DNA from: an uncultured Gammaproteobacteria bacterium
GTDB taxonomy: Bacteria > Pseudomonadota > Gammaproteobacteria > Pseudomonadales > Pseudohongiellaceae
Direction of reading: 5' to 3'
DNA: 46,456 bases
NCBI GenBank assembly: GCA_913058135.1
Contig: CAJXPR010000017.1
Location: 1-46,456, forward strand
The stretch's first letter is position 1; each line of letters starts with the position of its first letter. The translations under genes were made by a program, and so were the position numbers. The notes below the pieces were generated by a model. The model had not been told where the DNA came from, made no database searches, and was given only the letters and a program-made list of their open reading frames with translations. Shown here piece after piece: positions 42,287 to 46,456 of this stretch.

Positions 42287-43006
42287 GTGAGATCTGTTTC
42301 CCGCTTCAGTGCCATGGTTCTGGGTTTGTCACTTGTGCTGGGCCTGAGCAGCCTGGGTTATCTGTTGGGCAGCTTTGCGGTGACTGTCAAGGAGTATGAA
42401 CGCACCGTTACGGTCAAGGGTCTGGCCGAACAGGAGCATGTCGCCGACATCGTGATCTGGCCGATTCAGTACACAGCGGCGGACAATGATCTGGGCGCAC
42501 TGTATGCCACCATAGACAGCAACAACGTCAGCATCCGTGAATTTCTGGAAAACAATGGCCTGCCGGCAGCTGCCGTCACCCTGGCACCGCCGGCGATTAC
42601 CGATCGGCTGGCACAATCCTATGGCGACGGTTCACGCGCCGAGTTTCGATACACGGCCACCCAGGCGCTGACCGTGTATTCGTCCGATATAGAGCTGGTG
42701 CGCGGACTGATGAGCTCGCTGTCGGACCTGGGCCGGGAAGGCATTGTGTTCTCCGGTGCCGAGTATCATCTGCAGCCCGAATATCTGTTCACCCGCCTGA
42801 ACGATATCAAGCCGGCGATGATCGAAGAAGCCACGCGTGAAGCGCGCGCTGCCGCGGTCAAATTCGCCGATGATTCCAACAGCGAACTGGGGAAAATCAG
42901 GAACGCCTCGCAGGGACAGTTCAGCATCAGCGACCGGGATCGCAACAACCCACATATCAAGAATGTGCGTGTGGTGGTGTCAGTGGAATACTATCTGTCG
43001 GATTGA
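42287..43006 (+). CDS. SIMPL-domain (DUF541) protein, exported or anchored
   Basis: This 239-residue protein starts at GTG (GAGGAT upstream). An N-terminal helix (VLGLSLVLGLSSLGYLLGSFAV) is a signal or anchor. The rest is the SIMPL fold: strand RTVTVKGLAEQEHVADIVIWPIQYTAAD, then EFLENNGLPAAAVTLAPPAITDRLA, FRYTATQALTVYSSDIELV, and EEATREARAAAVKFADDSNSELGKIRNASQGQFSISDRD. Bacterial members are periplasmic, and some are linked to oxidative-stress tolerance, but the mechanism is unknown. It is probably co-transcribed with the methyltransferase. A 9-bp dyad follows the stop. Confidence 0.85.
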   Translation: MRSVSRFSAMVLGLSLVLGLSSLGYLLGSFAVTVKEYERTVTVKGLAEQEHVADIVIWPIQYTAADNDLGALYATIDSNNVSIREFLENNGLPAAAVTLAPPAITDRLAQSYGDGSRAEFRYTATQALTVYSSDIELVRGLMSSLSDLGREGIVFSGAEYHLQPEYLFTRLNDIKPAMIEEATREARAAAVKFADDSNSELGKIRNASQGQFSISDRDRNNPHIKNVRVVVSVEYYLSD

Positions 43007-43037: not shown

Positions 43038-43087
43038 GGTTAATCTGACGTAACGTCCGACAGCCCTTGTGTTACGCTTATGGCGTT

Positions 43088-44686
43088 ATGGCCCACTCAT
43101 CTGCGCACAACACTCGTCGACGCTTCAGGCTGCTGATCAAGCTGGAAGCTGCTCTCGAGACGCCCATGTTCGTTCTCGCGCTGCTGTGGCTGTGGCTTTT
43201 TATTATTGAACTGACGCGTGGCCTGACGGTCTTTCAGGAACGTCTGGGCATCGTCATCTGGGCACTGTTCATTATTGAATTCGCATTGAAGTTCGTCCTG
43301 GCGCCTGCCAAGCGCCGCTTCATGCGTCGCAACATCATCACCATGATCGCCCTGTTTGTACCGGCATTACGCGCATTCAGATTGTTGCGTGCGGTCAGGT
43401 TGCTGCGCGCCACTCGCGTGGTGACCAGCACCCGGTTTGTCCGTGCCCTCACCACCGGTCGACGTCTGCTGGCGGATCTTGATGAAGCTCAGGGCGGTCA
43501 ACCCGAAGCCCACATGCACGTTGGGATACTGATCGCGTGTGACCCGGCACAGGCAGATGATCATCGCACCTTTTCCCGGATCCTGGCGGCCGACGTCAAG
43601 CCAACGCTGGTATCGGCAAGTGGTATTCCGTGGACCTTTCACCAGCCACAGCTGTCCCGCACGAGCAGCGACGAGCCGCTTAAGCCTTCAGCGTTTCTCG
43701 AAGAGGCGGGCCAGCAGTTGGCTGAAGGGCCATTCGACATGGTCGTCGTGATCACCGATTCACCGCTGGTTTCGCGCCGCAAACTCGCCAGTGCCGGCCT
43801 GGCTTCTGATGTTTGCAGGATCGTGGTGATCTCCACGCGGCAACTGCGCAGCACGCCGCGCGGCAGTTCGGAATACAGCCTGGATGCGCCGGCCTTGAGC
43901 AGGAACGCGGCGTCACTGCTACTGCACCTGATTGGCCATGTCAGCCGCCTGCCTCACAGCGGGCCGGGCGAACAGGACGTGATGGCGCCCTTCGCATTCC
44001 GCGAGAATCGGGGACCTGAGATATTCTACAGCCAGGACCATCAGCAAAAGCTGAGAAAGCGCGCCGAAGATTTGCCGGAACGTGAACTGCGCGGCGGCAA
44101 CCTGCTGGACACCTTTGTGTTCCATCTCCTGATGCTGGGACGGCATCCACTGCAAGTGCTGCGCACGCTGCTGCGCAACCGGTCCATCCTGCTACCGCTG
44201 TCACTGCCCGGCCTGGCCACCGCAGCGGTGGCGCCCGGACTACTGCTGGTGTTCACCGCCGAGATCTGGGATGTCGGCCTGAACATGGGCAACCTGACGG
44301 CAACGCTGTATGCCATACTCAGCATCGCTGGCGCAAGTCTGTACCTGGTCAAGGTGCAATCGTTATTTCTGCCACGCAAGAACAAATTCACGGTGACCGA
44401 GCACCTCGCTGTTGCCAACAGTATTGTCTTTCTCAGTATCATGATGGCCTGCATCGGTCTGTTCCTGTTAGTGGGCGGGTTGATGCTGCTGATCCAGCTG
44501 TATATCTTCCCGGCCGATCTGATCCAGACCTGGCCGACCCTGGATCAGGCCGATGTCAGCCTGGGCGACCAGATCCGCCTGGCGAGTTTCATCAGCACCG
44601 TGGGGGTTACCACCGGCGCGCTGGCCGGCGGTCTGGAAAGCCGTACTGTCATCCAGCACCTGGCACTGTTCCTTGACGAAACATAA
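43088..44686 (+). CDS. Voltage-sensor-like / pseudo-metzincin / membrane fusion protein
   Basis: This 532-residue protein appears to be three modules. Residues about 20-120 are four helices like a voltage sensor: S2 has WALFIIEFALKFVLAP, and S4 has RAFRLLRAVRLLRATR (Arg every third residue). No pore helix or selectivity filter follows. The charge-transfer Asp expected in S3 reads Thr (NIITMIALF). Residues about 142-305 form a soluble domain with HVGILIACDP, FDMVVVITDSP, and HLIGHVSRLPH (280-290). The last is the metzincin H-x-x-x-H-x-x-x-x-x-H spacing with Leu at the catalytic Glu position, followed by a Met-turn-like DVMAP (Met299). Residues about 365-520 are again about four hydrophobic helices. 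The even number of sensor helices puts the middle domain in the cytosol. The ATG has no good ribosome site; a TTG at 43067 is an alternative. I recognise no named family. Confidence 0.7.
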   Translation: MAHSSAHNTRRRFRLLIKLEAALETPMFVLALLWLWLFIIELTRGLTVFQERLGIVIWALFIIEFALKFVLAPAKRRFMRRNIITMIALFVPALRAFRLLRAVRLLRATRVVTSTRFVRALTTGRRLLADLDEAQGGQPEAHMHVGILIACDPAQADDHRTFSRILAADVKPTLVSASGIPWTFHQPQLSRTSSDEPLKPSAFLEEAGQQLAEGPFDMVVVITDSPLVSRRKLASAGLASDVCRIVVISTRQLRSTPRGSSEYSLDAPALSRNAASLLLHLIGHVSRLPHSGPGEQDVMAPFAFRENRGPEIFYSQDHQQKLRKRAEDLPERELRGGNLLDTFVFHLLMLGRHPLQVLRTLLRNRSILLPLSLPGLATAAVAPGLLLVFTAEIWDVGLNMGNLTATLYAILSIAGASLYLVKVQSLFLPRKNKFTVTEHLAVANSIVFLSIMMACIGLFLLVGGLMLLIQLYIFPADLIQTWPTLDQADVSLGDQIRLASFISTVGVTTGALAGGLESRTVIQHLALFLDET

Positions 44687-44700
44687 AAAGGTGAGACATA

Positions 44701-44728
44701 AAAAAAGGGCCGCTTCCCAGCGACCCTT
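44701..44728 (-). terminator. Intrinsic terminator of the right-end gene
   Basis: Read on the minus strand, AAGGGTCGC, 6-nt loop, GCGGCCCTT (one mismatch) is followed by a run of T (A run at 44700-44706 on plus). It lies 20 bases after the stop at 44748-44750 and serves that gene. The facing plus-strand gene ends at 44686. Confidence 0.8.
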
Positions 44729-44747
44729 CAGACTTTCCTCTATTGCG

Positions 44748-46412
44748 CTATATCGACAGCAGCGCGCCACCGACTGACGTCGCGGCACTGACGACTGCGC
44801 CTACCACCAACCACCAGGCGGCTGTGATGGCATTTTTACGGACGTGCTCGGTATAGATCACCATTTTCCGTTTGCCCTGTTGATACCGTCGGGTTACCTC
44901 GTTTTCCACGGCGGTAAATGTTTCCAGTGCCCTGTCCCTCGCTTCGATCATCGTGTCCGCCGCTTTTTCAGCCTGCTCTTCGGATATTCTTGAGTTCGAT
45001 GACAGCAGGGCGACAACCGACTCCCGATCCATTTTGTGCAATCGATCCCGAACAATGTGTGGCGCTGCCCCGGGTTCTTCCATGATCGCCTGGACATCTC
45101 TTCTAAGTGAGGCATAGTTCAGTTCGGGTCTTTCCAGCCCGTTGAGATAGTCTGCCAGCTTTCTGTTCACCATCGACCTGGCGTCCGCGCTCCTGGCACT
45201 TGCGCCAGTGCCACCGTCACTGCTGGCATTTGCGCGGTCCATGTCAGCCTTACGTTTCTCCGCTTCTCCTTGCATGCGAGTGAATACATCAAAAACCTGT
45301 TCAACCACCTTGTCGGATTTTTCCGGGTCCAGGCCGCTGACATCCGCGACAATCCCCTTGATGGTAGGTTTATCAAACAGAGCCATTCGTGCCTTGAGGT
45401 TCTGCGCTCCCTGCCTGGGGTCGTCAAACAGTGTCATGATGTCCTGTTTGAACTCGTCTGCAGACAGCTCGGGATTATTGGTTCGTTCCAGTATTTGCGA
45501 CAGCTTTTTGCGCAGCTGGGCGGCTTCTTCGTCGGAAACTGGCGCCAGCGCATCAAACGCGGTGCCCGCGGGGTCGTCGCTGCTGCCCGCGCTATCAACT
45601 TTGCGTTTCAGGTTTTGCGCAGCACGCTTCAGCTTGCCGGCATTCTCAGTGTTCACGGTCGGATGATCGCGATAGTGGAGTTCCACCACCTCAACAAGGT
45701 CATCACCACTCACTGTCGTCTTATGCTCGGCCTCTACGGCCCGGATGATGCGCTTTAACTCCTTTTCCATGTCATCCATGGTCGGGAGCTGTGGCGTGAG
45801 TTTGTCTATGTAGTCGCCGAGTTTTTTATCAACATTGTCTTTACGGATGATATGGTCCACTTCCTCGTACACGGCGCGAACGGATTTTCGCGCCTGATCT
45901 TCTGCGTTGTCGGGATGGCTCAGCATGCCCGATGCCGCATTGGCAGTGCCGCGAACGCCCTTCACCGCTGAGTGCATCAGGCCACCCACGACAGAGGACA
46001 CTATTTTGTATTCCAGAAGTACTATCGACAGGAAAAAAAAAGCCCAAACAACCAGCCCGGCGACAATAGCGTATTCGGCGGTCAGCGGAATAATCGAGGC
46101 GCCTAAATAACTGCCGGCAAACACTGCGATACTCGACGTGATTAGCGCGGATACGCCCATGGCATTGGTGACGGCCATCATGGACAGTGATTTGTGATGC
46201 TCCTCCTCTTCATCGCGTTCGCGTGTTTTGTCGTCTTTGGCTAGAGAGTGAGCTTTTGCTTCTGCGGCCTTTTCCTTGAGGTCCGGGGTGAGTGATAGCC
46301 CTGTGGCTATCGAGAGCGAGGAAATCAGAAAGTGAACGCCGTAGGCGATAAGCACTGCTGAAATAATGCCTACGACAAACAGTCCAGCGATCCCGTCGGT
46401 CAAGAATATATT
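44748..46412 (-). CDS. Membrane protein with tandem helical repeats, N-terminus cut by contig end
   Basis: The visible 554 residues start after adapter sequence, so the N-terminus is missing. Three hydrophobic segments (GLFVVGIISAVLIAYGVHFLIS, then MGVSALITSSIAVFAGSYLGASII and YAIVAGLVVWAFFFLSIVLLEY) are followed by a long cytosolic or periplasmic helical region. A final helix (AITAAWWLVVGAVVSAATSVGGALL) closes the protein. The helical region contains two clearly related units: NPELSADEFKQDIMTLFDDP, leading to FDKPTIKGIVADVSGLDPEK, and RPELNYASLRRDVQAIMEEP, leading to MDRESVVALLSSNSRISEEQ. Each unit has the order PEL, D, acidic-Pro, Met/Phe-Asp, VAxLS/VSG, then a helix. An earlier, more diverged unit begins KKLGDYIDKL. 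No enzymatic motif is visible. It is convergent with the voltage-sensor-like gene. A terminator follows the stop. Confidence 0.75.
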   Translation of the reverse strand, partial: NIFLTDGIAGLFVVGIISAVLIAYGVHFLISSLSIATGLSLTPDLKEKAAEAKAHSLAKDDKTRERDEEEEHHKSLSMMAVTNAMGVSALITSSIAVFAGSYLGASIIPLTAEYAIVAGLVVWAFFFLSIVLLEYKIVSSVVGGLMHSAVKGVRGTANAASGMLSHPDNAEDQARKSVRAVYEEVDHIIRKDNVDKKLGDYIDKLTPQLPTMDDMEKELKRIIRAVEAEHKTTVSGDDLVEVVELHYRDHPTVNTENAGKLKRAAQNLKRKVDSAGSSDDPAGTAFDALAPVSDEEAAQLRKKLSQILERTNNPELSADEFKQDIMTLFDDPRQGAQNLKARMALFDKPTIKGIVADVSGLDPEKSDKVVEQVFDVFTRMQGEAEKRKADMDRANASSDGGTGASARSADARSMVNRKLADYLNGLERPELNYASLRRDVQAIMEEPGAAPHIVRDRLHKMDRESVVALLSSNSRISEEQAEKAADTMIEARDRALETFTAVENEVTRRYQQGKRKMVIYTEHVRKNAITAAWWLVVGAVVSAATSVGGALLSI

Positions 46413-46456
46413 CTGTCTCTTATACACATCTCCGAGCCCACGAGACAGGCAGAAAT
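46413..46456. other. Illumina Nextera adapter and index (not genomic)
   Basis: From 46413 the sequence is the Tn5 mosaic end (CTGTCTCTTATACACATCT), then the Nextera read-2 stem through CGAGAC (46446), then AGGCAGAA (46447-46454), which reads as an i7 index, and AT, the start of the flow-cell arm. On the minus strand the mosaic end translates as MYKRQ, a known artefact that creates a false start codon. Confidence 0.98.

Follow-up and report, generated by a model that had tools for sequence, protein, structure and literature searches.

The window, the whole 46,456-nucleotide stretch of DNA that was analysed, carries on its plus strand a gene of 532 codons plus stop (43088..44686). The ATG at 43088 was taken as the start from the translation and from full-length homologues; an in-frame TTG at 43067 is a possible alternative. 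The GC content around the gene is 0.56 to 0.59, which is ordinary for the window. The upstream neighbour on the same strand (42287-43006; 81 bases from the start codon) codes for a protein with a SIMPL (DUF541) domain. A terminator-like hairpin (44704..44729), a consensus match only and found on the minus strand, lies between our gene and a convergent one; the region has four such sites versus 1.4 expected. At the end of the contig stands what we take to be a Nextera-type adapter sequence (46413-46446), and the first residues of the minus-strand open reading frame 44748-46454 (..DVYKRQ..) are therefore regarded as an artefact.

Translation and homology agree on the anatomy that a previous, sequence-only reading had proposed for this open reading frame: a voltage-sensor-like domain (VSD) with helices S1-S4 (residues 1-135, 43088..43492), a metzincin-type domain (residues 143-305, 43514..44002) and four C-terminal helices (residues 366-532, 44183..44683), all on the plus strand. 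Homology and hydropathy were combined to assign the four N-terminal and four C-terminal helices; by itself, a 19-residue hydropathy scan did not separate S3 from S4 and returned residues 436-480 as one long segment. Judging from the sequence, the three parts are very probably a channel-derived S1-S4 domain, a dead archaemetzincin and a DUF2391-like four-helix domain.

Ten further distinct proteins have the same order of parts, so that 11 distinct fused proteins are at hand. In a scan of species genomes, Pontibacter yielded six full-length proteins with 54-56% identity (L004-L009), and an Armatimonadetes MAG yielded one with 51% identity that lacks the N-terminal part (L010). The window protein has one match in its own genome, and none was found in 14 genomes of the same genus. 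Its nearest relatives are those of Pontibacter, apparently another phylum than that of the window, which suggests horizontal transfer. A plasmid search with the window protein gave four records, all within query residues 3-87, two of which are annotated, as ion transporter or potassium channel; the relative L055, which lacks the VSD, had no match in the plasmids searched, and the window protein had none in the phages searched. The open reading frames around L004-L010, judged by eye, included no shared neighbour gene. Two Pontibacter genomes hold broken extra copies (L020/L121, G145:C28; L017/L120, G146:C30), of which one ends after about 226 model positions and one has an in-frame TAG.

Profile searches, in which some genomes enter more than one genome count, enlarged the family. 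With the full profile, 28 of 398 genomes of the window's phylum matched, 26 of these over the N-terminal part only; these 26 matches are presumably channels (L003, L023 and L050 were inspected). With a middle-plus-tail profile, five of 398 matched, namely through the window, L024/L099 (422 residues, no VSD), L100 and L101 (tail) and the DUF2391 protein L102. In the phylum of Pontibacter, 15 of 395 genomes matched (10 family members, 5 over the metzincin part only), and in that of the L010 MAG, 12 of 151 (2 family members, 10 over the metzincin part). Twenty of 119 relatives of genome G768 matched, one of them through a 79-residue frame only; among 99 relatives of genome G904, G904 alone matched; and eight matches among 148 relatives of one Pontibacter genome yielded three new fused proteins (L116-L118). 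A VSD profile built with 8 of the 11 fused loci (L116-L118 were not in it) and applied to every frame of the 42 family loci matched exactly the 11 fused loci, at E 5e-44 or better, and gave no match at E up to 0.01 in the other 31, short flanks covered. The family set has 39 rows, 8 fused and 31 others; L116-L118 stand only in the 11-row fused set and not in the tree. L017 enters only by the part after its in-frame stop, and L092, a 79-residue frame, was excluded. L051, L067, L081, L093, L098 and L099 duplicate places that the set contains, and L112, L114, L115, L119, L120 and L121 coincide with earlier places, as does L113, judged by open-frame length.

The N-terminal domain is 39-44% identical to S1-S4 of four six-transmembrane (6TM) channels (L018, L019, L021 and L023; 283-295 residues by open frame); three come from Pontibacter, each from a genome in which a fused protein is encoded too. 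Pfam Ion_trans was found in both channels scanned (L021 and L023; 1.9e-8 and 6.3e-12), and L023 matched the family profile with an E value of 1.3e-37. The window protein reached 10.2 bits against Ion_trans (PF00520), below the cut-off of 25, and a profile of the first eight relatives matched NavAb at E 0.046, weakly and in the right region. In S4 of the window protein, arginine occupies every third position (95, 98, 101, 104, 107 and 110; 43370..43417, plus strand); S2 is LFIIEFALKFVLAP. No S5-pore-S6 follows S4; a soluble domain stands there instead, whereas the four aligned channels have S5-pore-S6. The channels carry unusual filter-like stretches, SIGSDYFP and MGSEYWP, where the usual potassium filter would be expected. 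The VSD-like module with an S4 ladder and no pore, as previously claimed, was thus recovered by its homology to channels and by the absence of the pore half.

Eight residues of this domain (E41, E64, K68, N82, R95, R98, R104 and R110) do not vary among the 11 fused rows; they include four S4 arginines and an acid each in S1 and S2. Conservation of the S4 arginines, which the sequence-only reading had asked about, therefore holds for four of them and is partial for two, R101 being kept in 8 of 11 rows and R107 in 5 of 11. Classical voltage sensors have an acidic residue in S3. In the window protein S3 is NIITMIALFVPAL, and none of the 12 aligned rows, channels included, has an acidic residue there, which makes us less confident that voltage is sensed in the classical way. 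PMC13095418, in its accessible part, mentions an S3 countercharge. We rate true voltage sensing by the S1-S4 domain as possible, somewhat below even odds. Alternatively, S1-S4 may be a membrane anchor or assembly module only, with the protein working like its VSD-less relatives, by way of the pseudoprotease and the DUF2391-like domain, and sensing no voltage. This is a serious contender that we would still not call probable: the lack of an acid in S3 and the fact that the VSD-less form is the commoner one (31 of 39 family rows) speak for it, but a mere anchor needs neither the four invariant S4 arginines nor the invariant acids of S1 and S2.

The middle domain was borne out as a metzincin-type domain and is specifically archaemetzincin-like by profile library, profile-profile comparison and predicted fold. 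A 14-row family profile aligned with 11 soluble archaemetzincins over 129 columns (hhalign probability 98.5, E 2.5e-15), with HLIGHVSRLPH opposite HExxHxxGxxH and Met299 opposite the Met-turn; a profile of just the eight nearest rows gave a probability of 96.2 and an E value of 2.5e-9. The soluble set excludes L064, whose motif is matrixin-like, L069, whose match contains an in-frame stop, L074, which is nearly a copy of L073, and L077, in which the pattern did not find the full motif; L076, a match with a stop, enters by a stop-free part. NCBIfam archmetzin matched seven of eight rows at E up to 1, the best at 2.1e-7 and the window protein at 0.012, below the cut-off (15.6 versus 145). Six VSD-less relatives that possess a middle domain were scanned, and each matched archaemetzincin, at 7.5e-5 to 1.1e-13 and always under the curated cut-off; L100, scanned against NCBIfam archaemetzincin, gave no match. 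For the window protein by itself, Pfam listed neither M54 nor DUF2391 at E up to 1, and a PDB sequence search with this single protein returned nothing at that threshold. Pfam alone favours M10, with Peptidase_M10 in four of eight rows (best 1.8e-4) and M54 in one of eight at 0.046. In the relatives with ranges shown, Peptidase_M10 spans just 28-38 residues around HxxxH; archaemetzincin profiles extend over some 100 residues with better scores, and archaemetzincin structures top the lists. Matrixin (M10) was therefore rejected as the closest family.

The full-length AlphaFold model had a mean pLDDT of 54.1. Its ten-residue blocks from 141 to 290 reached 64-87, and residues 289-316 and 318-331 stayed under 50; thus, the models support the fold and do not prove the geometry of the site. 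Foldseek listed 3lmc and the archaemetzincin 2x7m first, followed mostly by metzincins and by some PIWI-complex rows, and 3lmc was the single match with E up to 0.001. A comparison of the region of residues 142-305 with metzincin structures, as proposed beforehand, gave with VIA on a low-confidence model a Z score of 13.5 to AmzA 2x7m (rmsd 3.7, 150 residues aligned) and about 10-12 to other metzincins. A domain-only model (pLDDT 64.8) also placed 2x7m first, at Z 10.4, tied with other metzincins and with unrelated folds close behind (lumazine synthase, 9.1; PIWI, 8.7), and therefore adds little. The PIWI and lumazine synthase matches were taken as general alpha/beta resemblance.

Glutamate is the general base of metzincins. 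In the degenerate active-site motif HLIGHVSRLPH (residues 280-290, 43925..43957, plus strand) it is replaced by Leu281, and Met299 of the Met-turn (43982..43984, plus strand) stands nine residues past His290. Over the 39 family rows, His280 was found in 36, His284 in 35, His290 in 34 and Met299 in 37, versus Glu281 in only 2; Gly287 was found in 20. The catalytic position holds Leu, Thr, Ser, Ala, Gln, Cys or Val in family rows; in the 11-row fused set it is always Leu, Met or Gln and never Glu. Loss of the catalytic glutamate, as claimed, is therefore a feature of nearly the whole family. The three histidines are present in 11, 11 and 8 of the 11 fused rows and Met299 in 11; conservation of the His/Met set thus holds for His280, His284 and Met299 and fails in part for His290, which is Arg in two rows and Thr in one, so the three-His site is not universal. 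Alone among the fused rows, the window protein has Arg at position 287, where the other 10 have the usual Gly. Among 393 columns of the 39 rows, the Jensen-Shannon score, which favours rare residues, ranked Met299 3rd, His280 4th, His284 15th, His290 16th and the Glu column 238th; by plain identity the ranks were 8, 14, 23, 27 and 111. Parsimony required two changes for His280, three for His284, four for His290 and two for presence or absence of Glu. A chance motif was ruled out by the hhalign homology, the column counts and the conservation ranks.

Homologues that retain HExxH, which the sequence-only reading had proposed to look for, do exist: two of the 39 rows, L059 and L083, both without a VSD, carry a complete HELGHLNGLGH. 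Both sit inside the Glu-less group on the tree, a position that would favour regain of the glutamate; independent losses are the alternative. They also show that activity is, or once was, attainable for the family, which favours the view that the middle domain has remained able to cleave peptides by means of a residue other than Glu. With Leu, Met or Gln at position 281 in every fused row, we consider this highly improbable and are confident that the middle domain works without proteolysis. Two distant relatives that belong to the order of the window, L100 and L101, have lost the HxxxH stretch and kept the domain start and the membrane tail; metal is thus not needed in every family member. Such losses would fit a middle domain that is a peptide- or ligand-binding receptor no longer using metal, in which the conserved histidines are structural remnants: His290 is lost in three of 11 fused rows, and the sites of L024, L060, L089, L100 and L101 are broken. 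We hold this to be unlikely, given the high ranks of the His columns in comparison with the Glu column and the few changes that parsimony requires at the three histidines. The family appears to keep the metal ligands and to let the catalytic position vary, as predicted for a metal-site pseudoprotease; the earlier suggestion of zinc is plausible and supported by the selective His/Met conservation, and on balance we expect the domain to bind metal.

The window protein resembles its fused relatives most closely in the C-terminal membrane domain. Tail identity to the window was 66-67% in the three fused rows compared (L005, L007 and L052), versus 43-46% for the middle domain in six fused rows and 48-54% for the VSD in seven, and the mean column score over 39 rows was 0.47 for the C-terminal domain versus 0.41 for the middle. 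Trp394 of the conserved Glu392-Ile393-Trp394 (44261..44269, plus strand) is present in 39 of 39 rows and Glu392 in 92%. On most measures the C-terminal domain is the best conserved part. Its relation to DUF2391/TIGR02587 is remote. The first helices of the tail aligned with a profile of the first half of DUF2391 and half-size DUF2391-like proteins over 54 columns (hhalign E 3.9e-6, probability 87), and there was no hhalign signal against the second half (probability 1.5). The search match L102 is a true DUF2391/TIGR02587 protein (5e-85), and the relative L055 scored 23.4 bits against Pfam PF09622 (DUF2391; cut-off, 22) and 20.9 against TIGR02587 (cut-off, 183.7); in the other VSD-less relatives scanned, DUF2391 did not come up at E up to 1. 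When the halves of DUF2391 were compared with each other, they aligned at hhalign E 6.1e-13. DUF2391 itself seems to consist of a four-helix unit repeated in tandem (L102-L111), and half-size versions occur as five open frames of 136-163 residues (L107-L111). The genome of the window also has a full-length DUF2391 protein, on another contig (L105, G000:C26). The tail of the window protein is probably one four-helix unit of the DUF2391 superfamily. Neither DUF2391 nor TIGR02587 was mentioned in the literature searched, to which most subscription journals did not belong.

The sequence-only reading had named the cytosolic domain as the output. Since it is in the tail that the window protein and the fused relatives resemble each other most, an output by the cytosolic domain only is probably incomplete, and the membrane unit is the likelier output. 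The same likeness argues against the view that S1-S4 itself conducts protons or ions, as Hv1 does, and is regulated by the rest. That view has in its favour that the S1-S4 domain lacks a pore domain, as do the proton channels described in the part of PMC6392501 available to us, but the tail is more alike than the VSD between the window and the fused relatives, although dN/dS agrees in only one of two pairs; we regard it as very unlikely.

Two pairs of fused relatives gave overall dN/dS values of 0.081 and 0.102. By part, the values were 0.044 and 0.020 for the membrane domain, 0.133 and 0.114 for the middle and 0.038 and 0.284 for the VSD; the tail is thus lowest of the three parts in one pair and near lowest in the other. 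The VSD was the highest of the three in the pair L004-L006 (0.284), as expected for a mere anchor, but the lowest in the other pair (0.038), which speaks against one. In a quick maximum-likelihood tree of 50 rows, run with no bootstrap, the eight fused rows formed one group (SH-aLRT 98) nested in the VSD-less family, with L010 and then L017 outside it, and the family that contains the VSD-less forms was separate from the soluble archaemetzincins (SH-aLRT 99); 20 of 47 inner branches were unresolved, including the order within the fused group. Among the eight fused proteins on the tree, the VSD looks to have been gained once. The simplest account is that an archaemetzincin and a membrane unit were joined, the glutamate was lost, the VSD was gained once and the gene was transferred between phyla. 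At the level of sequence, the order of parts is confirmed as conserved and beyond chance by the 10 further proteins, the VSD profile, dN/dS and the His/Met columns versus the Glu column.

By homology, the S1-S4 domain was very probably taken from a 6TM channel, the pore half being absent. In the mechanism that we propose, the middle domain would lie in the cytosol because S4 ends there. Metal, probably Zn, would be kept in the His site as a structural or ligand-binding element. S4 would move with the membrane potential and shift the metal-bound pseudoprotease, which would act as a relay and switch the C-terminal membrane domain or a partner. The VSD-less relatives would represent an older metal- or ligand-responsive form, to which the fused form would add potential as an input. 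The relay would be analogous to Ci-VSP, in which, according to the portion of PMC12332018 available to us, a VSD drives a cytosolic enzyme. We give this whole mechanism a probability of about 0.35. That the protein is a bacterial membrane-potential receptor in which a pore-less S1-S4 domain acts through a zinc-holding dead protease on a DUF2391-like transporter or channel is doubtful. The fused protein may link an electrical state or a metal to an output.

Among known proteins, archaemetzincins (M54; AmzA structures 2x7m, 4axq and 3zvs, and also 3lmc, which is titled a zinc-dependent peptidase) share with the middle domain the predicted fold, the sequence order of the domain, the HxxxHxxxxxH positions and the Met-turn. 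Unlike them, the window protein is without the catalytic Glu, membrane-embedded and fused, and it has no Cys at the places of the archaemetzincin consensus HCx4CxMx17CxxC (given in the accessible text of PMC3427221). The non-proteolytic archaemetzincin-like family NCBIfam NF033824 matched weakly, in three of eight rows with a best E of 0.028 and in L054 at 6.6e-6; the best score was 26 bits (L054) versus a cut-off of 250, and its 174-position model is too short for the membrane parts. A full DUF2391/TIGR02587 protein (PF09622) has two units and no metzincin domain, and the 6TM channels (L018, L019, L021 and L023) have S1-S4 in common with the fused protein and S5-pore-S6 to themselves. In the archaemetzincin literature searched, as far as its accessible parts went, nothing was found on voltage sensing or on such a fusion, nor was a paper on a non-proteolytic archaemetzincin. 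That no described family has this order of parts, as stated previously, agrees with our finding none with a VSD-archaemetzincin-DUF2391-like order in the literature searched, most subscription journals lying outside its scope.

The voltage-sensing phosphatase (VSP) and SLC9C1 are known from animals. Like the fused protein, they combine a channel-type VSD with a non-channel effector (PMC12332018, PMC6052114 and PMC4389355, in the parts available to us); the effector of VSP and of SLC9C1 is a phosphatase or an exchanger, whereas that of the fused protein would be a pseudoprotease plus a DUF2391-like domain. In the window protein, Pfam at E up to 1 listed no phosphatase, PTEN-type or other. In the accessible parts of the literature surveyed, VSP and SLC9C1 are the VSDs with a non-channel partner and Hv1 and TMEM266 those with S1-S4 and no pore, none of them bacterial. 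A bacterial channel-derived sensor on a pseudoprotease would show that VSDs were reused outside channels in bacteria too. Moreover, the family offers a natural series (Glu kept; Glu lost and His kept; site deleted) in which to study the path from protease to scaffold, and it places the uncharacterised DUF2391-like membrane unit next to a set of partner domains. If the protein is a membrane-potential receptor, it would be a bacterial counterpart of the voltage-sensing enzymes, with a pseudoenzyme as the relay.
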